Part shown: positions 10,009 through 49,463 of the stretch, in pieces | Numbering within the stretch: the first letter of the stretch is position 1 | Layout: every line of letters starts with the position of its first letter | Origin: Anaerolineae bacterium | GTDB taxonomy: Bacteria > Chloroflexota > Anaerolineae > Anaerolineales > Villigracilaceae | DNA: 64,000 bases | Assembly: GCA_021324435.1 (NCBI GenBank) | Contig: JAJPIZ010000010.1 | Location: forward strand, 1-64,000 | Reading direction: 5' to 3' | Notes under the pieces: generated by a model | Told to the model about the DNA's origin: nothing | Databases searched by the model: none | The model's input: the letters and a program-made list of their open reading frames with translations, nothing else | Position numbers and translations under genes: made by a program

Positions 10009-12422
10009 GGTTTGATCGCCGCCTGAATCAATTGCCGCCCAATGGATTGCGCCATCAGCGGGCGATCTCCTTCGATGAGGACGACGACGGTCAATGGCAG
10101 GCCCTGCCAGTTTGGCAGCGTCCCGGCCAGATACCATGTAACCGGCTCTTTATTCGACCCGGCGTTGCCGATCCATTCCCAATAAAGCTGATCTTCCACT
10201 TTGAGCGTTTGCGCAACTAGGCTGATGTTGTCTGCGGCAAAGACATCCACCGGCGCGCTGAGAGATGGAAGCACGACCCAGCCTTGTTGTGGCGTGTTGA
10301 CGGCCAGCGCGATGCGCGGGGCGGGGCGCGTGCCATTGTTGCTGAGCGTCGCCGCCGCCAGCGTCATTTGAAGCGGCGTAACGCGCAGATTTTCAATCTC
10401 GCCATCTGCGCTCGGTTGTGCGACAGGCATTTGCACGTGCGGCGCGCTGTAAAAACCAAGACTCTTGTACAAACTTTTCACCTGGCTGGCCGGTTCATCT
10501 GTTTCGCCAACTGCATGGTAGAAGGGCGTGACGGCCGTTCCAGGCGGATACAGTCCCTGCGCGGCGCGGTTGATCAGCGGGGCTTCCTTGTCCGTGGCCA
10601 ATGCCTGACCAAGTTGTGCAAGTTTGTTTGGGTCGTAACCTGGATGTGAAGCCATGATAAGGATTTCCCCGGACTTTGCGTTGATCATAACAACGGCGCC
10701 TTTGGATCTGTTGAAGAGGAAGTCGGCTTTCTTCTGCAGTTTCAGATCGAGGCTCAGCCTCACATCCAGACCTGGAGGCGGCGTGCCGTAAAGCAAGTGA
10801 TCCCACCAGATAAGGCTGGCCGGATTTCCCTGCAAGCCGCGTAAGTAATTATCAAGTGAGGCTTCCAACCCCGCCTGACCATACGTGGGATTGGTGTAAC
10901 CGGTGAGCGGGGCAAGATCAGGATAAAGATAAACGCGCTGATATGAACCGCTTTTTCCCTCTGTGGCGTTGATGGGTTGATTGTCTCTATCCAGCAGGGA
11001 GCCGCGCAAAACGTAACGATCCGCGATGGAACGCCGCGGGTTGTCGGTGCGCGTCAACAGATCGGGGCCGCGAATGACAGCCCACCAGGAATCGGTCAAT
11101 GACGCGGCCGCTAACCCGATTCCAAGCAGCCCGGCGAGCAGAAAGTACGGGCGCGGCGACAAAAGCGCGGCGGGCTCCGTCTCGGTTTGATGACCGATGG
11201 TGAGTAAAAACGCGAGGGCAATGAAAGAAGTGAGGAGCGATGAGCCGCCATATGACACAAAAGGTAATGTCACGCCCGTGAGCGGCAACATGCGCAAATT
11301 GCCGCCGATGATGAGCAGGGCCTGGATGCCGAGGTGAGCCGTCAGGCCGGCGGCCAGCAATCGGCGATATTTGTCAGCGGCGCGCATGGAGGCGATTAAA
11401 CTTCGGGCGAGGATCAAGCCGAAGATGGCGAGCAGGCCGATGGTCCCCGCGAGACCGGTTTCTTCCGCGATGGCAGAGAAAACAAAATCGGAAATCGCCA
11501 CCGGCACGAGTCCGGGACTGCCAAGCCCGGGGCCGCGTCCAAATGTCCCGCCGTTGGCGATGGCAAGAAGCGATTGAATGACTTGATACGAACGCCCGCT
11601 TGGGTCGTTCCATGGATTGAGCCAGGCTTCGAGCCGCGCGTGAACGATGTCAATGAAAAAGAATCCCACAAGCCCGGCCAGCGTCAACGCGCCTGCAGTG
11701 ACGAGAAGCACGCGGCGTTTGTCGGTGGTGAGATAGAGCATGACTGTAAAGAGCAAAATGAAAATGCTGGCCATGCCAAGATCGCGCTGTACAACGAGGA
11801 GCAGGAGCGCCAATCCAGTGACAAACACAGTGGGGAGGAGCAGAGGAAAAGCAGGCAATCGGACCGGCATGTGGTCGGCGAGGTACGCGGCCAGATAGAC
11901 GACCAGCAAAAGTTTAAGCGGCTCAGACGGTTGCAGATAAAAGCCGCAACAGCCAAGCCACAAGCGCGGGCCGCTCCCGGTTGGATTTGTGCCAAACAGA
12001 AGAGTCAGTGCAGTGAGCGCGAGGCCGCCAGTGAGGAGGACATATTTATATCGGCGCAGGAAATTAAGATCATGCGGCGCGCGCAGGATGGCCGTGAACG
12101 CCGCGACGCTCACTCCCAGCCACAGCGACTGCCTTAAGCCGAAACTTGGATCGAGCCGCCAAATGGTGAGCAGGCCCCATCCGCTCAATAGCGCGGCAAG
12201 CGGGAAAAGATATGGATCGCGATCAGGGAGTCTTTGCGAAAGTGTACGATGCGCGAATAGAATCAATGCCGCCCAAAGCGCAAATCCAAGCCAGTGCGAA
12301 AGGCGGTAACTTACATTCCAGCTTTGTTCGCGCACAGCCGGCGCGAGAGTCAGGATGGCAGAATATAAAAATAGAAAAATCGCCGCCAGAATCAAAAGAC
12401 GGCGCTCACGCTGGTCAGCCAT
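10005..12422 (-). CDS. SEDS glycosyltransferase (FtsW/RodA) fused to a degenerate PBP transpeptidase domain
   Basis: Residues 1-412 form a polytopic FtsW/RodA/SpoVE domain that polymerises lipid II. The conserved catalytic Asp is present as D312 in ISDFVFSAIAEE, with FGRGPGLG before it and LPFVSYGGSS after it. Residues about 445-805 resemble a class B penicillin-binding protein (SGEILIMASHPGYDPN, INRAAQGLYPPG, LRVTPLQMTLAAA). The active-site S-x-x-K is replaced by TAVT (629-632) and no K-T-G motif is seen, so the transpeptidase half looks inactive. The start overlaps mtnP by 8 bases. In actinobacteria rodA and pbpA are adjacent genes near fhaA/fhaB, so this looks like their fusion. Confidence 0.9.
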   Translation of the reverse strand: MADQRERRLLILAAIFLFLYSAILTLAPAVREQSWNVSYRLSHWLGFALWAALILFAHRTLSQRLPDRDPYLFPLAALLSGWGLLTIWRLDPSFGLRQSLWLGVSVAAFTAILRAPHDLNFLRRYKYVLLTGGLALTALTLLFGTNPTGSGPRLWLGCCGFYLQPSEPLKLLLVVYLAAYLADHMPVRLPAFPLLLPTVFVTGLALLLLVVQRDLGMASIFILLFTVMLYLTTDKRRVLLVTAGALTLAGLVGFFFIDIVHARLEAWLNPWNDPSGRSYQVIQSLLAIANGGTFGRGPGLGSPGLVPVAISDFVFSAIAEETGLAGTIGLLAIFGLILARSLIASMRAADKYRRLLAAGLTAHLGIQALLIIGGNLRMLPLTGVTLPFVSYGGSSLLTSFIALAFLLTIGHQTETEPAALLSPRPYFLLAGLLGIGLAAASLTDSWWAVIRGPDLLTRTDNPRRSIADRYVLRGSLLDRDNQPINATEGKSGSYQRVYLYPDLAPLTGYTNPTYGQAGLEASLDNYLRGLQGNPASLIWWDHLLYGTPPPGLDVRLSLDLKLQKKADFLFNRSKGAVVMINAKSGEILIMASHPGYDPNKLAQLGQALATDKEAPLINRAAQGLYPPGTAVTPFYHAVGETDEPASQVKSLYKSLGFYSAPHVQMPVAQPSADGEIENLRVTPLQMTLAAATLSNNGTRPAPRIALAVNTPQQGWVVLPSLSAPVDVFAADNISLVAQTLKVEDQLYWEWIGNAGSNKEPVTWYLAGTLPNWQGLPLTVVVLIEGDRPLMAQSIGRQLIQAAIKP

Positions 12423-42977: not shown

Positions 42978-44825
42978 TCAATCCACCGCGGCTTCACTTT
43001 CTGTTTCTTCCTTCTCAACGGCTTCCTCAATCCCATACTGCACTTCCAACTCATGACGGAACTGTTGCGTGTACAGTCTATAGTAATGTCCGCGCATTCT
43101 GAGCAGTTCAGCGTGCGTGCCTTGTTCAACGATGCGGCCATCTTGAATGACAATGATTCGGTTGGCGCGGCGGATGGTGCTCAAACGATGCGCGACCACA
43201 AACGATGTGCGGCCCTTCATCAGGGCTTCCATGCCGCGCTGGATCAACGCTTCGGTCAAGGTGTCCACCGAGGAAGTCGCTTCGTCCATGATGAACAGTT
43301 CAGGTTTGGCCAGCACAGCGCGCGCCAGCGAGATCAACTGTTTCTGTCCAACCGAGAGCAGGTTGCCGCCTTCGCCCACGTTTTGGTCGTAGCCTTTTTC
43401 GAGTGTCACGATGAAATCATGTGCGCCCGCGATCTTGGCGGCGTTCACAATCTCGTCGTCGCTCGCGTTCAAACGTCCATAGCGAATGTTCTCGCGCACC
43501 GTCCCGGAGAAAAGATGCGGCGTCTGCAAAACGATGCCGATCTTCGAGTGGATCGACTCCAACGTGTATTCGGTGTAGTCGCGTCCGTTGATGCGGATCA
43601 CGCCCGAGCGCGGCTCGTAAAAGCGGCAGAGTAGATTCACAATCGTTGACTTGCCGCCGCCGGTCGGTCCGACCAGAGCGATCATTTCGCCCGCGTTGAC
43701 CTTCAACGTGAAGTCGGTCAGAACAGGCTTGCGGTCCTCGTAATAGAAATCCACATGATCGAATTCGATCTCGCCCATCAACGTGGAGGCAGGCACCGCG
43801 TCGCTTCTATCGTGGACCTCGGGCGGGGTGTCAATCAACTTGAAGATTCGCTCCGCCGACGCGATGGAGTGCTGCATCTCGGCATAGACGCGCGCCAAAT
43901 CCTGCACCGGCCACATCATAAAGGTAAGATACGTGACGAAGGCGTTGATGCCGCCGATGGTGATCAGCCCAACCTGGATTTGAATGCCGCTGTACCAAAC
44001 GATCACGCCGAGCGCGACCGCGGCGATGATCTGGACAGTGGGGAGGAAGAGCGCCGAGAGCCACGCGGCGCGATACGACGCGTTGTACATCTTGGTCGTC
44101 AGCAATTGGAATTCTTTGAGATTCTCGTCCTCGCGTCCCAGCGCCTTGACCACGCGCACGCCCTGAATGTTTTCGTTGTACGCGCCAGTGATCTTCGAGT
44201 TGGCGCGACGGCTGTTGCGGAACTCCACCAGAATCTTCTTTCGGAATTGCACCGCGATCAACATCATGATCGGGATGCTCGTGAAAACGATCATGGCCAG
44301 TTTCCAGTTGATGATCGCCATGAAGGTCACCGATGTGATGATGTTCATCGCCGCCCAGGTCGTGTCCACCACACCCCAGGTCATCAGGTCCGCCACGCGG
44401 CCTGTATCGGAGGTCACGCGCGCGATGAGACGTCCCACCGCGTTCTGCGCGTAGTACGAGAGCGATAGTTCCTGCAAGTGATTGAACATCATCTTGCGCA
44501 GGTCGTATTGAATGCGCTCGCCCAGCACGCCGGCCAGATAGACGAACGAAAAGACCGTCGCCATCTGAAAGATGATGATGGAACCGTACAGCGTTGCCAG
44601 GTGCATCAGCGCCGCGGTATCCTTCATGTTGATGCCTTTGTCCACAAAACCTTTATTGATAAAGGTGAGATAGGCATCCGTGATGGAGGTGAGGGCAATC
44701 GCGGCAAAGAAACCGATGACCCATTTCCAGTGCGGTTTCATCAGTCCGACAATGCGCTTGAATACCGGCGCGGTTAATTGCGATGTGTATTCTTCTTCTT
44801 CAAGTTCGATAAATTCTTCTGACAT
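42978..44825 (-). CDS. ABC exporter half-transporter, catalytic-Glu subunit of a heterodimer
   Basis: 615 residues from the ATG at 44825, which GGAGAATTACCT precedes. Six membrane helices are followed by a nucleotide-binding domain: Walker A GPTGGGKST, Walker B LFIMDEATSSVD with the catalytic Glu. Its signature is LSVGQ rather than LSGGQ. Its partner (45342-47183) has LSGGQ but Asp in place of the catalytic Glu. This pattern gives one competent and one degenerate ATP site, as in BmrC/BmrD, LmrC/LmrD and TM287/288 multidrug exporters. The drug or lipid substrate is unknown. Confidence 0.93.
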   Translation of the reverse strand: MSEEFIELEEEEYTSQLTAPVFKRIVGLMKPHWKWVIGFFAAIALTSITDAYLTFINKGFVDKGINMKDTAALMHLATLYGSIIIFQMATVFSFVYLAGVLGERIQYDLRKMMFNHLQELSLSYYAQNAVGRLIARVTSDTGRVADLMTWGVVDTTWAAMNIITSVTFMAIINWKLAMIVFTSIPIMMLIAVQFRKKILVEFRNSRRANSKITGAYNENIQGVRVVKALGREDENLKEFQLLTTKMYNASYRAAWLSALFLPTVQIIAAVALGVIVWYSGIQIQVGLITIGGINAFVTYLTFMMWPVQDLARVYAEMQHSIASAERIFKLIDTPPEVHDRSDAVPASTLMGEIEFDHVDFYYEDRKPVLTDFTLKVNAGEMIALVGPTGGGKSTIVNLLCRFYEPRSGVIRINGRDYTEYTLESIHSKIGIVLQTPHLFSGTVRENIRYGRLNASDDEIVNAAKIAGAHDFIVTLEKGYDQNVGEGGNLLSVGQKQLISLARAVLAKPELFIMDEATSSVDTLTEALIQRGMEALMKGRTSFVVAHRLSTIRRANRIIVIQDGRIVEQGTHAELLRMRGHYYRLYTQQFRHELEVQYGIEEAVEKEETESEAAVD

Positions 44826-44874
44826 AGGTAATTCTCCATTCCATGAACAAGGAAGAAAAGGATAAAGGATGAGT

Positions 44875-45318
44875 GATGAAGGATGAATAAAGATTCCTGT
44901 TCGGGATTTCATCCCTATTTCTTGTTCAATCTCTTCTTGATCTTTGTCACAATGGTTGTAAAGATCGCCAGCAATTCGTTCGTTTCCCTGCGAAGCGGCT
45001 CAACTTTTTGTGCGGGGATGATTCCGCTTTTTACAAGCAACTCCAGCCAATAATCGGTCTCGTCCAATTCTTGCAAAGCGGACTCGAACTTATTCACGAT
45101 GTCGGCATCGGACTTTGCACGATGTCCTTCGCGATAGTGCGCTCCAACTGAAGTGCCAGACCTCAAAACCTGCTTTCCGATCACTTGCCCTTCCGTTGTT
45201 TTCGGCAAGCTTATATATAGCTTGATAATCCGCAGGGCAAAATTGCTTGTCCGCGCTCGCAGGTCTTGCGGCTTCTCATTTTCCATTGCATTCTCCTCGT
45301 TTTTATTCATCCTTCATC
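44875..45318. mobile_element. Candidate cassette with 17-bp perfect terminal inverted repeats
   Basis: GATGAAGGATGAATAAA at 44875-44891 is the exact inverse of TTTATTCATCCTTCATC at 45302-45318. Both arms point inward and further degenerate ATGAAGGATGA units flank them. The only gene inside is the four-helix-bundle ORF, and the element separates the two halves of an ABC exporter operon. No transposase is present, so mobility would need to be in trans; target-site duplication is not obvious. Confidence 0.55.
44915..45286 (-). CDS. Four-helix-bundle protein (23S rRNA intervening-sequence protein family)
   Basis: 123 residues from the ATG at 45286, which has GAGGAG upstream; an earlier ATG at 45310 lies inside an inverted repeat. 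The family (S23/TIGR02436) is recognised by LPKTTEGQVIGKQVLRSGTS, VGAHYREGHRAKS and FESALQELDETDYWLELL. These small basic pentameric bundles occur in rRNA intervening sequences, as stand-alone ORFs, and as Avd accessory proteins in diversity-generating retroelements. No retroelement is nearby. Its placement between two ABC subunits looks like an insertion. Confidence 0.9.
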   Translation of the reverse strand: MENEKPQDLRARTSNFALRIIKLYISLPKTTEGQVIGKQVLRSGTSVGAHYREGHRAKSDADIVNKFESALQELDETDYWLELLVKSGIIPAQKVEPLRRETNELLAIFTTIVTKIKKRLNKK

Positions 45319-45341: not shown

Positions 45342-47183
45342 TCATCCTTCATACTTCTTCATTTCGGTTTCCAGCTCTTCATCAATCCGCGTCTGAATGT
45401 CATAGATTCGCCGGTAGATTCCGCTCTCGTCTTCGAGCAGGTCTTCATGCCGGCCCATTTGAACGACCGAGCCTTTGTCGAGCACCAAAATCAAATCGGC
45501 TTTCATCACGGACTGAATGCGGTGCGCGATGATGAAGGTCGTGCGGTTTTCCATCAGATCATTCAACGCCTTGCGGATTTCCACTTCGGTCTCGGTGTCA
45601 ACCGATGACGTCGAGTCATCCAAAATCAGGATGCGCGGGTTCTTCAGCAGAGTGCGCGCAATCGTCACGCGCTGTTTCTGTCCGCCGCTCAACGTCACGC
45701 CTTTTTCTCCGACCAGCGTGTTATAGCCGTCGGGAAAAGACAAAATTACATCATGGATCGCGGCGGCCTTCGCGGCGGCTTCGATTTCTTCCTGCGAGAC
45801 GCTTCGTCCAACGCCGTACAAAATATTCTCGCGGATCGAGCGGCTGAACAGGAACGGCTCCTGTTGCACGATGCCAATCTGTTCGCGCAAATATTTGCGC
45901 GGATAATCTTTCAACTCCACGCCGTCCAGCAGAACCTGTCCGCTGGTGTAATCGTGAAAGCGCGGCAGAAGATTGACAAGCGATGTCTTGCCCGAGCCGG
46001 TCGAGCCGAGCAGGGCGATGGACTGCCCCGGCTGGATGTGAAACGAGACGTTTTTCAAGACTTCATGTTTGCCGTCTTCGTAGACAAACGACACATCCTT
46101 GAATTCAATCTCGCCTCGCACCGGACCCTGAGGCTGGATGCGGCCATCCGTGAGCGGTTCACGCGTCTGCTTGACGATTTCCATCAAACGGCCATACGAG
46201 ACCAGACCCGTCGAGGCCTGCACGATCATACGTCCCAGGTTGCGGATCGGCCAGATCAGCCACACGACCAATCCAACGTACGTGACGTAATTGCCAACCG
46301 TGATTTCGCCGCGGATCGCCATCGTCGCCGCAAGGATGAAGCCGAACAACATCTGAAATCCAAGCACGATGTCGGAGAGCGGCCAGAAGAGCGAGTGCAT
46401 GACGAGGAGCAAACGTCCTTTTAGAAATTTGCTCCAGTTATCTTTTTCAAATTTGCCTTTCTCATAATCCTGCCGCGCAAAGGCCTTGACCACACGCACG
46501 CCCGTCAGATTCTCCTGTAGAGTGGTGGAGAGAATCGCTTCCTGCGCTTGATACTCTTCATAGCGCTTCGTCACTTTTTGGAAAAACCAAAGCGACACGA
46601 CCAGTATCAGTGGAATAACAATCACAGAGGCCCATCCGAGTTTTGCATTGAGATTCAATATCGCAGTCCAGTTGATGACAAAGAGCAGGATGATGCGTCC
46701 CATGCCGATGGCTTGCTCCGAGAAGAAACGCCGCAGGGCGTCCACATCGGAGGTCACGCGTTCGATCAGATCACCGGTCGGCGTTTGGCTGTGATACGAA
46801 AAACTCAATCGCTGGATGTGATCGAAGAGGAAGTCTCTCAGGCGCCGCGTGATTCCCTCGGCGGTGTAGGCCGCTAAACGTCCCGAAAGATACGAGAAGA
46901 GGCCTTCCACAGCGGCCAGCGCGACGAATCCAACTCCGATCAGCAACAGGGTTTTATCCAGCGTCCCGGCTACATAAATTTGTTGAGTCAGAACCTTGTC
47001 GGCAAAATAGCCGAGCAGAAGGAATGTGCAGGCCTTGGCAAGCGCGGAGACGGCCAGCGCAGCCGTCGCGCCGATGTACGAGACGCGAAAGTCTGTCATC
47101 ATGCGCCAGATGCCAAGCAGGCGATTTTTGGTGAGAGCATTGCGAAAGTCAAAATAGATAGATGGAGGTGTGATGGCGTTCAT
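45342..47183 (-). CDS. ABC exporter half-transporter, degenerate-Walker-B subunit
   Basis: 613 residues from the ATG at 47183, preceded by AAAGGATTTTCC. Six membrane helices, then Walker A GSTGSGKTS, canonical signature LSGGQKQR and Walker B ILILDDSTSSVD, where Asp replaces the catalytic Glu. It is the complementary half of the exporter encoded at 42978-44825. It is the first structural gene after a leader ORF and intrinsic terminator, so its expression should depend on terminator read-through. Confidence 0.93.
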   Translation of the reverse strand: MNAITPPSIYFDFRNALTKNRLLGIWRMMTDFRVSYIGATAALAVSALAKACTFLLLGYFADKVLTQQIYVAGTLDKTLLLIGVGFVALAAVEGLFSYLSGRLAAYTAEGITRRLRDFLFDHIQRLSFSYHSQTPTGDLIERVTSDVDALRRFFSEQAIGMGRIILLFVINWTAILNLNAKLGWASVIVIPLILVVSLWFFQKVTKRYEEYQAQEAILSTTLQENLTGVRVVKAFARQDYEKGKFEKDNWSKFLKGRLLLVMHSLFWPLSDIVLGFQMLFGFILAATMAIRGEITVGNYVTYVGLVVWLIWPIRNLGRMIVQASTGLVSYGRLMEIVKQTREPLTDGRIQPQGPVRGEIEFKDVSFVYEDGKHEVLKNVSFHIQPGQSIALLGSTGSGKTSLVNLLPRFHDYTSGQVLLDGVELKDYPRKYLREQIGIVQQEPFLFSRSIRENILYGVGRSVSQEEIEAAAKAAAIHDVILSFPDGYNTLVGEKGVTLSGGQKQRVTIARTLLKNPRILILDDSTSSVDTETEVEIRKALNDLMENRTTFIIAHRIQSVMKADLILVLDKGSVVQMGRHEDLLEDESGIYRRIYDIQTRIDEELETEMKKYEG

Positions 47184-47214
47184 GGAAAATCCTTTGTAGA
47201 TGAGGGCGGACAAT

Positions 47215-47248
47215 AAAAAAAGCCACGGTGCGGAGCGCAACCGTGGCT
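47215..47248 (-). terminator. Attenuator terminator in the ABC-exporter leader
   Basis: On the minus strand AGCCACGGT, a ten-base loop and ACCGTGGCT are followed by seven T residues. It lies after the leader ORF stop and before the ABC start. The loop (47231-47238) can also pair with leader codons 20-22 (47289-47296) through 8 base pairs, one a G.U wobble, offering an alternative fold. Confidence 0.85.
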
Positions 47249-47269
47249 GAGAGGAAAACACAGCGTGAC

Positions 47270-47356
47270 CTACGTTCGGTCAACAGGCGCACTCCGAGAA
47301 GGACAAAAAGAACCCGAAACTTCGAGCGGGGTGGTGAAATAGATGTTGATGTTCAT
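47270..47356 (-). CDS. 28-residue leader peptide of the ABC exporter operon
   Basis: Starts MNINIYFTTPLEV and ends SAPVDRT, 28 codons plus TAG. It has the strongest ribosome-binding site in the region (AGAAAGGAGG, 8 bases before the ATG). It is followed 21 bases later by a perfect intrinsic terminator. A short, well-translated ORF directly before a terminator and a heterodimeric multidrug ABC exporter is the arrangement of Bacillus subtilis bmrB-bmrCD, where ribosome stalling by antibiotics prevents termination. The peptide itself shows no similarity that I can recognise. Confidence 0.7.
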   Translation of the reverse strand: MNINIYFTTPLEVSGSFCPSRSAPVDRT

Positions 47357-47395
47357 GGAGCGCGCCTCCTTTCTGTAAGATTAACTTGCGATGAG

Positions 47396-47425
47396 AGTTT
47401 ATCATGAGGCTGTGAATGATGTCAA
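47396..47425 (-). promoter_or_regulatory. Promoter of the leader/ABC exporter operon
   Basis: On the minus strand TTGACA (47420-47425) and TAAACT (47396-47401) are 18 bases apart, giving a start about 33 bases before the leader ATG. The 47184-47594 gap thus contains this promoter, the leader ORF, the attenuator, and nothing else evident up to the dioxygenase-like gene. Confidence 0.65.
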
Positions 47426-47594
47426 GCAATTGATGAATACACATGGGAGGAGGTCGGACATTGTAAGAAATTCTGCTGAAACGAGGTCGGGCAATTATGC
47501 AAGACAAAGAACCGCATCTTTCCGCCCCCGTACCGGCCACGCATAGAGGGGCAGGGGAGGCGCTGATCATTTGATTCTGTTCAAGGAGTCAACC

Positions 47595-48236
47595 ATGAAA
47601 CGAAAACTTTATCTCATCTTTTTGCTTTTACTCACTGCCTGCGCCGCGCCGACAAAAAATGTCTCCCCGCCTGCGGCAACTCCGACAGAGATCCTTCCCA
47701 TTCCGTCGCAGACACATCAGAACGATTTATTTGATGCAAACAATATAATTCTTGCCGCGCCCGAGTGCAACAGCGGATTGACGTCATCGCAGACAGAAGG
47801 CCCGTACTATAAATCCGGTTCGCCCGAGCGAAATTCACTGTACGAAGCAGGCATGCCCGGCAAGCGGCTTCTGGTCGTGGGTTATGTGCTCGATCAAAAT
47901 TGTCAACCGATCCCCGGCGCCTGGCTGGATTTCTGGCAAGCCGATGCAAACGGTTCGTACGACAATGCTGGCTATACTTTGCGCGGACATCAATATGCCG
48001 ACGCGCAAGGCCGCTATTTTCTTGAAACCGTTTTTCCCGGCGAATATCCCGGACGCACACAACATATTCACGTCAAGGTTCAGCCGCCGAACGGAAATAT
48101 TCTGACCTCACAACTATATTTCCCAAATGAGCCTGGAAATTCCAGCGATGGAATCTTCGACTCCGCGTTGCTGGTCAAGCTGGAGGACCGCGGTGATTAT
48201 TTTGTGGCCTATTTCAATTTTGTGACTCAAAAATAA
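47595..48236 (+). CDS. Lipoprotein with intradiol-dioxygenase (protocatechuate 3,4-dioxygenase-like) domain
   Basis: 213 residues from the ATG at 47595, with AAGGAG upstream. The lipobox LLTAC marks lipid anchoring. The domain keeps all four iron ligands of intradiol dioxygenases: Tyr in EGPYY, Tyr in GEYPGR, and both His in QHIHVKV. Classical enzymes are cytoplasmic; secreted versions of this kind are common in soil and aquatic bacteria but their substrates are mostly unknown. It probably oxidises an extracellular catecholic compound. Confidence 0.88.
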   Translation: MKRKLYLIFLLLLTACAAPTKNVSPPAATPTEILPIPSQTHQNDLFDANNIILAAPECNSGLTSSQTEGPYYKSGSPERNSLYEAGMPGKRLLVVGYVLDQNCQPIPGAWLDFWQADANGSYDNAGYTLRGHQYADAQGRYFLETVFPGEYPGRTQHIHVKVQPPNGNILTSQLYFPNEPGNSSDGIFDSALLVKLEDRGDYFVAYFNFVTQK

Positions 48237-48263
48237 AAGAGCAGAAATCTATTTCTGCTCTTT
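48236..48263. terminator. Bidirectional terminator, dioxygenase-like gene / recombinase
   Basis: AAAGAGCAGAAA (48236-48247) and TTTCTGCTCTTT (48252-48263) form a perfect 12-bp stem around TCTA. It overlaps the 3' ends of both convergent genes. Confidence 0.85.
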
Positions 48264-49241
48264 GTCTCTCTCGAAAATTTGATAATAGCCCTTGTCGAGT
48301 TCATCGTCACTCAAATGGGCATATCGTTGAGTGACTTGAATATTTGCATGGCGCGCCAATTCCTGCGCCAGTTTGAGATTCCCTGACCCGCGTAGAACGG
48401 TTGTGACAAAGTAATGACGAAATGAATGCGGGGTGATTTTTCCTTCGGCCTGATTTCCCAAAGCCTGTCGAACACGCTCACTGACGATATTGCGTCCTGT
48501 GGCAGTTGTGATGGTTTTGATTTTCTTGCCCGCGCCTTTGTCATGCCGCGCAAAGAGGGGCAGGGATGCCAAAGGTTTTCCCGAGCCGCCATCCAGTCCC
48601 GCGCGAAGCGAGAGGTAATCTTTCAAGGCTTTCATTGACCGAGTCGAAAATCGCACCACGGCCTGTTTATCGCCTTTGCCAATGATTGCCGCGCGGCCTT
48701 CATTCCAATCTATGTCGCCGCGTCGAAGCTTGCACGCCTCGTGAACGCGCAACCCAGTGTCGGCCAACGTTAGCAAAAACGCTCGGTCGCGCATTGCGCG
48801 TAAGTATTTGACCTCGTCGCTGGCCTTTGCAAAGTTTGAGTCGCTGACAAAAGCCAATACGCGTTCGATGTCATTCGCCGGGAATTGTGGCAAACGGATA
48901 CCAGGGCGGCGCGCGCGTTGTTTTACCAGCAAACGGACTCGTGACAGATTAATGTCCGCCAAACGCTCGGCGTCGAGGAATTGATAAAAGCCTGTGACAG
49001 CCTGTAGATAGACTTGCTCCGTGGCGGGGGAGGAATCCTTCAGATGCCTGGCCATCCATGCAATTGCGTCTTCCGTCAGCGTGTTGACAGGCGATGATTC
49101 AACATCAATCTTTTTGCCTCTCAAGACTTCGCGAAAGAGATTAAGCGCATTGGCGTAAGTGCGCGCCGTGTGTTGCGCGCGTGCCAACTTGACTGTTTCC
49201 AAATATTGTATGATCGCAGAAGCAATCGAAAGGCTGGTCAT
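48249..49241 (-). CDS. Tyrosine recombinase (XerC/D-like)
   Basis: 330 residues from the ATG at 49241. An N-terminal SAM-like core-binding domain precedes the catalytic domain, with Arg in DTGLRVHEACKL, the H-x-x-R box TPHSFRHYF and the Tyr nucleophile in TQRYAHL. It cuts and rejoins DNA through a 3'-phosphotyrosine. No phage genes, excisionase or att repeats flank it, so it may be the chromosome-dimer resolvase or an orphan integrase. The promoter places the transcript start at the ATG, favouring this start over upstream ones. Confidence 0.9.
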   Translation of the reverse strand: MTSLSIASAIIQYLETVKLARAQHTARTYANALNLFREVLRGKKIDVESSPVNTLTEDAIAWMARHLKDSSPATEQVYLQAVTGFYQFLDAERLADINLSRVRLLVKQRARRPGIRLPQFPANDIERVLAFVSDSNFAKASDEVKYLRAMRDRAFLLTLADTGLRVHEACKLRRGDIDWNEGRAAIIGKGDKQAVVRFSTRSMKALKDYLSLRAGLDGGSGKPLASLPLFARHDKGAGKKIKTITTATGRNIVSERVRQALGNQAEGKITPHSFRHYFVTTVLRGSGNLKLAQELARHANIQVTQRYAHLSDDELDKGYYQIFERDKEQK

Positions 49242-49248
49242 CACGACC

Positions 49249-49276
49249 ATTATACGAATTCTCAACGATCTGTCAA
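49249..49276 (-). promoter_or_regulatory. Consensus promoter of the recombinase, apparently leaderless
   Basis: On the minus strand TTGACA (49271-49276) and TATAAT (49249-49254), both perfect consensus, are 16 bases apart. Only 7 bases separate the -10 box from the ATG. The rest of the 49242-49463 gap shows no gene. Confidence 0.75.
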
Positions 49277-49463
49277 TGTTTTCGGTAATAATACTTATCA
49301 AAAACAAAAGGACGGGCAGGAATCATTATGTGAGGCTCACCTCCCCGCGTCGCAAAAGTATGGATGAACACTGTGAGATTTACAACTCAGGCTTTGCCAA
49401 GAGACAAATCGGTTTCAATGTGTTTTCCAGTTTCCCGCCTTCGCGAATTTCACCCCCACCCTG

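Follow-up and report, generated by a model that had tools for sequence, protein, structure and literature searches.

The stretch of DNA analysed here, referred to as the window, comprises 64,000 nucleotides of an Anaerolineae bacterium (phylum Chloroflexota; contig JAJPIZ010000010.1, positions 1 to 64,000), and its minus strand carries a putative transcription attenuator upstream of a pair of ATP-binding cassette (ABC) half-transporter genes. Read in the direction of transcription, the sequence begins with a sigma-70 type promoter (47396–47425), in which TTGACA (47425–47420) and TAAACT (47401–47396) are separated by an 18-nt spacer. Next come a strong Shine–Dalgarno (SD) sequence, AAAGGAGG (47365–47372), and a 28-codon leader open reading frame (ORF), MNINIYFTTPLEVSGSFCPSRSAPVDRT (47270–47356), with its ATG at 47356–47354 and its TAG at 47272–47270. 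A small hairpin, UGACC...GGUCA (47266–47282), surrounds the stop codon and is recovered in both alignments described below. It is followed by an intrinsic terminator (47215–47248), identified from sequence, folding and covariation, which consists of a GC-rich hairpin (47248–47221) and seven T residues (47221–47215). The first half-transporter gene (45342–47183), presumed to be the regulated gene, starts with an ATG at 47183, and the second (42978–44912) is likely to be in the same operon; both products match PF00664 and PF00005, and they may form a heterodimer. A preliminary description of the locus had listed promoter, strong ribosome-binding site, 28-codon ORF, seven-T terminator and ABC genes in this order on the minus strand, and all of these are present.

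The gene upstream of the leader promoter (47571–48233) lies on the plus strand and points away from the terminator, which therefore does not belong to another unit; the nearest further minus-strand gene upstream of the leader ends at 48249. A reading of the terminator as the end of an upstream unit was ruled out by this gene order. The preliminary description had considered that the leader ORF might not be conserved and that the terminator might belong to such a unit, and neither is the case: many genomes conserve the SD sequence, the pairing strands, the place of the stop codon and the terminator as a set.

Two alternative helices compete for one strand of the leader. P1 is an 11-bp helix between AGGCGCGCUCC (47357–47367), which overlaps the end of the SD sequence and extends to the start codon, and GGAGUGCGCCU (47295–47285) in codons 21–24; compensatory changes and a swap test point to it. 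The shared strand, GGAGUGCGCC (47286–47295), is supported by folding and swap tests and has two possible partners: the P1 5′ strand, or the terminator by way of its 5′ arm and loop. The latter pairing, P2, has eight pairs in the window, between GGAGUGCG (47295–47288) and UGCGCUCC (47239–47232). P1, P2 and the terminator are mutually exclusive and occur in the classical order of anti-antiterminator, antiterminator and terminator, with the upstream ORF (uORF) inside P1. Pairing of the terminator loop with leader codons 20–22 had been proposed earlier; such a pairing exists, but it involves codons 21–23, within a shared strand that spans codons 21–24. P1, the third element beside the SD sequence, was not part of that proposal, nor was the membership of this leader in a family with many kinds of target. 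The leader fold has a z-score of −2.43, and an equally good fold was obtained in 3 of 200 shuffled sequences.

In the fold model used, the transcript stops before the 3′ arm of the terminator, and a ribosome is represented by removal of all RNA to 15 nt beyond the first base of the P-site codon. For the free RNA of the window, modelled P1 is 1.00 and P2 is 0.00. With a modelled ribosome at codons 1–16, P2 is 0.91–0.95; it is 0.75 at codon 17, 0.01 at codon 18 and 0.00 beyond. Averaging over 102 of 115 homologous copies placed the switch point similarly.

A switch can be proposed from these folds. By default, P1 would join the SD/start region to codons 21–24 and take up the antiterminator strand; alternatively, a ribosome moving quickly past the leader would cover codons 21–24 or let P1 re-form behind it. 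With the strand occupied, the terminator would fold and the ABC genes would be off. Ribosomes that are loaded but stalled within the first ~17 codons, by a ribosome-targeting drug or other elongation stress, would block P1, and codons 21–24 would then pair with the emerging terminator 5′ arm and loop. Once P2 had formed, RNA polymerase would read through and the exporter would be made. Termination is predicted both with no ribosome, when P1 forms, and with a ribosome near the stop codon, when the strand is occluded. Transcription from the promoter, translation of the leader and read-through are all assumed in this scheme. Stalling as the signal, with ribosome inhibitors as the probable inducers, is suggested by the kinds of gene that the leader would control.

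The leader belongs to a family, of which 179 copies (a first set of 132 and a later set of 47) were parsed. The class of the window holds 175 of them; the other four, of which one is weak, come from other parts of the phylum. When 150 genomes of the taxonomic family of the window were searched at the DNA level, many strong matches appeared, focused on the shared strand and the terminator. The figure of 146 of the 150 genomes listed at E ≤ 1 in this first search was not used because many matches were short or weak. A first covariance model was built from 29 of 30 fetched loci, one (L022) being dropped and restored in later sets. It matched 62 of 298 genomes of the class at E ≤ 0.01, including all 14 same-family genomes of that sample, and 33 of 400 genomes of the phylum at the same threshold, 32 of them in the class. 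A broader model, built from 51 copies that came partly from genomes later searched with it, matched 126 of the 298 class genomes at E ≤ 0.001. In the phylum set, it matched 43 of 400 genomes (40 of 55 in the class and 3 of 345 outside it), with up to five copies per genome. One family genome (G009) had no match in either phylum search.

Three copies outside the class look genuine. Two of them (L214 and L215) have seven P1 pairs each, with 10 and 11 P2 pairs, respectively, and both match GNAT genes; the third (L216) stands before an ABC-F gene. A further outside-class copy (L139, genome G462), followed by a RIO1 gene, is weak, with only three P1 and four P2 pairs. In a contig scan with a strict pattern, which distant copies could escape and for which a rough estimate predicted a few chance matches, 28 of 33 stretches matched the covariance model. 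All 28 records carry Chloroflexota-type names: Chloroflexota/Chloroflexi, Anaerolineae, Anaerolineales, Anaerolineaceae, Anaerolinea, Chloroflexus and Candidatus Aquidulcis, the last two of which we take to be members of Chloroflexota. The remaining five stretches (L144, L152, L155, L158 and L171) were named outside Chloroflexota and none matched at E ≤ 0.1, so that spread beyond the phylum was rejected for these candidates. A script located a promoter of the window type ahead of 121 of 131 copies; after base shuffling of the upstream regions, the mean was 24. Rfam gave no match in the whole window at the gathering score; the best in the leader reached 15.2 bits (E 0.88), against 59 needed. 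One copy, the restored L022, matches the model from position 15 onward, has no promoter by script, lies upstream of an HsdM-like gene and is perhaps a relic.

Covariation was assessed in two alignments. In that of 29 copies, 94.8% of 652 cells are paired, the score is 0.268 against 0.164 after shuffling (0 of 500 shuffles as high), and nine pairs show changes on both sides, a number reached in 3 of 500 shuffles. In that of 51 copies, 90.2% of 1108 cells are paired, 20 of 23 pairs show both-side changes, and the score is 0.345 against 0.157 (0 of 500), with no shuffle as high on any of five measures; versions of this structure slid along the alignment score 0.04 to 0.09. Both-side changes occur in all five pairs of the stop hairpin (77.9% of cells paired) and in all 10 pairs of the terminator (97.6%). 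Because the models with which copies were collected included P1 and the terminator, and the 51-copy alignment was fitted to its model, the pairing scores of these two helices were helped by selection. The preliminary description had suggested comparing related genomes for conserved leader codons and a covarying stem; codons of an RSAP core are conserved, and stem covariation exceeds that of 500 shuffles in both alignments.

P2 is in the structure of no model, though its sequence was in the models. It was assessed by a swap test, in which the score of a leader strand with its own partner was compared with its scores with the partners of other copies in 500 swaps. In 132 copies, own partners scored 18.80 and swapped partners 16.44 (sd 0.20); in 62 copies, most of which belong to other families, 17.56 and 14.64; and in the later 47 copies, 16.89 and 14.22, with 0 of 500 swaps as high in each case. 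Shuffles and swaps leave the relatedness among copies in place. One copy (L095) illustrates a joint change of all three strands: its shared strand is CGGAATGCACC, its P1 partner GGTGCATTCCG and its P2 partner GGTGCATTCTG.

The leader ORF is conserved in frame. All 29 copies of the first alignment have the same SD core, AAAGGA. Two copies of the first set lacked a start; in 116 of the other 130, the start is in frame with the RSAP core, where chance would give one third, and 18 different ATG-to-core distances are represented. After omission of 15 more copies from the peptide table, 115 leaders of 16–34 residues remained, all crossing the core at 27 to 81 nt from the ATG; that all of these distances are multiples of three results from selection and, unlike the 116 of 130, is no evidence. 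Within the core, R is conserved in 91, S in 104, A in 109 and P in 101 of the 115 leaders. At the nucleotide level, GCG accounts for 108 of 109 Ala codons and AGT for 99 of 104 Ser codons, as pairing would demand. Directly before the shared strand, CCT TCT/TGT (47302–47297 in the window) is likewise conserved, including the third-position T, yet it lies in no modelled helix; CCT makes up 74 of 79 Pro codons at position −2 of the leaders compared.

A script that picks the first ATG after the SD sequence found 158 ORFs that cross the core among the 179 copies, of which 139 share the RSAP frame; the remaining 19 use other frames, and five of these stand before RsgA genes. On inspection, the other-frame ORFs number 17, one of the 19 (L105) being a misaligned RSAP leader and another (L099) lacking a clear core. 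The stop codon lies at a median of 20 nt from the start of the shared strand in RSAP-frame ORFs (5–95%: 17–29) and at 13–40 nt (median 24) in the others. Copies that lack the peptide still keep the switch strand and a stop at a limited distance. Because other-frame ORFs keep a similar stop distance, the position of the ribosome seems to be more important than the peptide. Taken together, this conservation pattern argues for function.

The genes that follow the leader were grouped by BLASTP, and some representatives were checked in Pfam and NCBIfam. The 129 downstream ORFs of the first 132 copies comprise 61 ABC exporters, 14 DrrA-type ABC ATPases, 30 GNAT acetyltransferases and eight RsgA proteins, with smaller numbers of RIO1 kinases (four), ABC-F proteins, MFS transporters and ABC-2 permeases (two each), RtcB and HsdM (one each); four (L058, L097, L117 and L120) fell into no group. 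Among the 46 ORFs of the later 47 copies are 13 exporters, six DrrA-type ATPases, three ABC-F, eight GNAT, three RsgA and six RIO1 proteins, and seven are without a group (L179, L180, L182, L183, L185, L197 and L201). One of these copies, L185, lies upstream of a RIO1 gene when searched from the gene side (as L272). A few assignments are weak: in L048, 521 nt separate the element from the start of the RtcB ORF, the ABC-F ORF of L115 has no start, the ORF start of L128 is miscalled, and the HsdM of L022 was named by eye. All five ABC-F proteins score above the cut-off of the ribosomal-protection-like ABC-F model; the checked MFS representative is nearest to TetA(P), below its cut-off. HAD hydrolases follow three copies, L197 by Pfam and L180 and L201 by look, and may be a further target group.

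Searches were also made from the gene side. An element on the gene's strand was found upstream at 13 of 25 RIO1 loci (L251–L275) at E ≤ 0.05. Four of these copies were known before (L252, L257, L272 and L274), L252 being a training copy, and two matches are weak (E about 0.005); an antisense match inside L274 was left out of the count. Other RIO1-linked copies are L090, L094, L101, L139, L174, L181, L189, L202, L204 and L208. RsgA is a lesser target: 46 of 100 genomes gave 50 matches to it, 30 of these loci were fetched, and the element was present at E ≤ 0.05 at three, including one training copy. The frequent presence of the element upstream of RIO1 kinase genes in the class hints that the kinase serves under ribosome stress. 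In one contig (G243:C112, L259), a RIO1 gene (11847–12350, minus strand) adjoins an RsgA gene (10472–11236, minus strand) with the element upstream of RIO1. As the two genes are adjacent on one strand behind the element, a single copy may control both.

Taken as a whole, the leader is very probably a ribosome-mediated transcription attenuator of the bmrB/vmlR kind, reused at dispersed sites as a cis-regulon for translation stress; the latter reading follows from the occurrence of the same switch before ABC exporters, ABC-F, GNAT, RsgA, RIO1 kinase and other genes. It is also reasonably likely, though to be held with less assurance, that the copies together form a regulon lacking a regulator protein. 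In Anaerolineae-type Chloroflexota, and in a few representatives of other classes, a single homologous attenuator would have been copied before genes for exporters, ABC-F proteins, acetyltransferases, MFS transporters, RsgA and RIO1 kinases, so that each gene senses stalled ribosomes itself. Such a regulon can be likened to that of WhiB7, a master regulator in actinobacteria. If the proposal holds, bacterial RIO1-type kinases and these GNAT enzymes would act in the response to ribosome damage.

Several observations weigh against the reading as a ribosome-mediated attenuator. Free RNA averages P1 0.41 and P2 0.47 over the 102 modelled copies, so the default is less clear in some copies than in the window. 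At equilibrium, the finished terminator outcompetes P2 in the window (0.94); since the finished transcript favours the terminator, the choice between folds must be kinetic. By script, no ATG-started ORF runs through the core in 21 of 179 copies (12 with no ATG, eight with an early stop and one with no stop). In the 29-copy alignment, the number of further pair types (22 against 20.4) is not significant, being reached in 118 of 500 shuffles. The genome of the window itself has no further copy at E ≤ 5 with the broad model, the multi-copy pattern being seen in relatives. From the gene side, 12 of 25 RIO1 loci and 27 of 30 fetched RsgA loci had no match.

Among other explanations, it is conceivable but unlikely that the nascent peptide is the sensor, its conserved C-terminus (...P(S/C)RSAPVD) arresting the ribosome via the exit tunnel in the presence of a drug, so that arrest and not general slowing is the signal. 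Leaders that encode arrest peptides of the SecM/ApdA type are familiar, the conserved core residues would suit one, and RSAP presumably resembles the RAGP/RAPP arrest motifs. However, 17–19 of 158 ORFs read this RNA in a different frame, their stops lying 13–40 nt from the start of the shared strand, GCG and AGT are near-fixed as nucleotides, and a ribosome with RSAPVD in its P-site would cover the shared strand, giving a modelled P2 of 0; the exact peptide is probably not the sensor. A leaky constitutive terminator, or a small-ligand RNA switch, with a dispensable ORF in either case, would account for the conserved hairpins and for the 12 of 179 copies in which the script found no ATG. It is nevertheless very improbable given the invariant AAAGGA of the 29 copies, the 116 of 130 starts kept in frame over 18 N-terminal lengths and the limited stop distance in both frame groups.

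Starvation for one charged tRNA, sensed as in trp/his-type attenuators, would share the same three-helix logic, in which a stall anywhere in the first codons suffices. Hardly any weight can be given to it, because the N-terminal part of the 115 leaders has no dominant amino acid (I and S lead at 8.7% each; W is 0.1%) and no repeated codons, three-residue identical runs occurring in five leaders, and because the downstream genes are mostly for transport, acetylation or ribosome-related functions and not for biosynthesis. Amino-acid-specific attenuation was rejected on this composition. That the small ORF encodes a peptide secreted by the ABC exporter, with an incidental terminator, is suggested by the position of a short peptide immediately upstream of an exporter gene. 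This idea is scarcely credible, as the same element precedes RsgA, RIO1, ABC-F and GNAT genes, and the N-terminus differs in sequence and length between copies while the RNA pairing and the distance of the stop are maintained.

The proposed attenuator is of a known mechanistic kind; within these searches, the family that it forms and the range over which it occurs are new. Judged from descriptions, the window leader is grouped with bmrB and vmlR by mechanism and not filed as a bmrB homologue, and by analogy its switch logic equals that of bmrB and especially that of vmlR. The comparison with bmrB-bmrCD made in the preliminary description was apt in mechanism, as a small ORF, an exclusive antiterminator and an anti-antiterminator were all found. 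In Bacillus subtilis, the bmrB leader of bmrCD has a translated ORF, the same three alternating elements and a multidrug ABC pair downstream (PMC4191407). A start-codon mutant of bmrB lowers expression (PMC4191407), and the model for the window predicts likewise. The bmrB ORF has 53 codons with the terminator inside it, whereas the window ORF has 28 codons and a terminator after the stop; that account also concerns one operon, whereas the window element precedes many kinds of gene (PMC4191407).

The vmlR leader, also of B. subtilis, has its uORF inside an anti-antiterminator helix that stalling blocks (PMC9226507). Its antiterminator bears a small hairpin, SL-2, at the apex and is followed by an intrinsic terminator, an order corresponding to P1, stop hairpin and terminator; its target is an ABC-F protein, a type also found among the targets of the window family (PMC9226507). 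Differences are that vmlR has a tripeptide uORF and an SD sequence that is single-stranded before the helix, whereas ORFs of the window family have 16–34 residues and the SD end and start lie within the helix; the vmlR leader also has an SD-sequestering SL-4 (PMC9226507). In many copies of the present family, by eye in the 29-copy alignment, CTGTG or CTGTC and a T-rich stretch lie between stop hairpin and terminator (47265–47249 in the window). By analogy with SL-2 of vmlR, this segment is possibly a polymerase pause.

Further parallels come from two other systems. The hflXr leader of Listeria shows ribosome-dependent transcription attenuation via a small ORF of 14 residues, upstream of a ribosome-recycling gene (PMC6310831). 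The toiL uORF of topAI in Escherichia coli responds to at least five classes of ribosome-targeting drug with stalls at different positions, which would fit the variable N-terminus here; toiL acts on translation and Rho-dependent termination, whereas the window element has an intrinsic terminator (PMC12121999). These resistance-gene attenuators of Bacillus, Listeria and E. coli are each described at one locus (PMC4191407, PMC9226507, PMC6310831, PMC12121999).

The present leader differs from these single-locus attenuators in that one covarying element stands at many places. Description at a single locus is, to our knowledge, the general picture for resistance-gene attenuators. Within the open-licence literature searched, there was no description of this leader element or of such control in Chloroflexota or Anaerolineae, and nothing joining a bacterial RIO kinase, a leader and an antibiotic; the papers that did come up for the phylum concerned histidine genes and REP sequences. 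Through its sequence, the leader makes it possible to list genes on which these bacteria, most of them uncultured, would depend when ribosomes stall, and it suggests that bacterial RIO1 kinases and uncharacterised acetyltransferases have a role. It also offers a large natural alignment in which sensing of ribosome position can be told from sensing of the peptide.

Two further genes lie near the leader. Between the two ABC genes lies a homologue, by Pfam, of the 23S rRNA intervening-sequence protein (PF05635; 44915–45310), and a recombinase of the phage integrase family (48252–49307) is encoded ~1 kb upstream of the leader.
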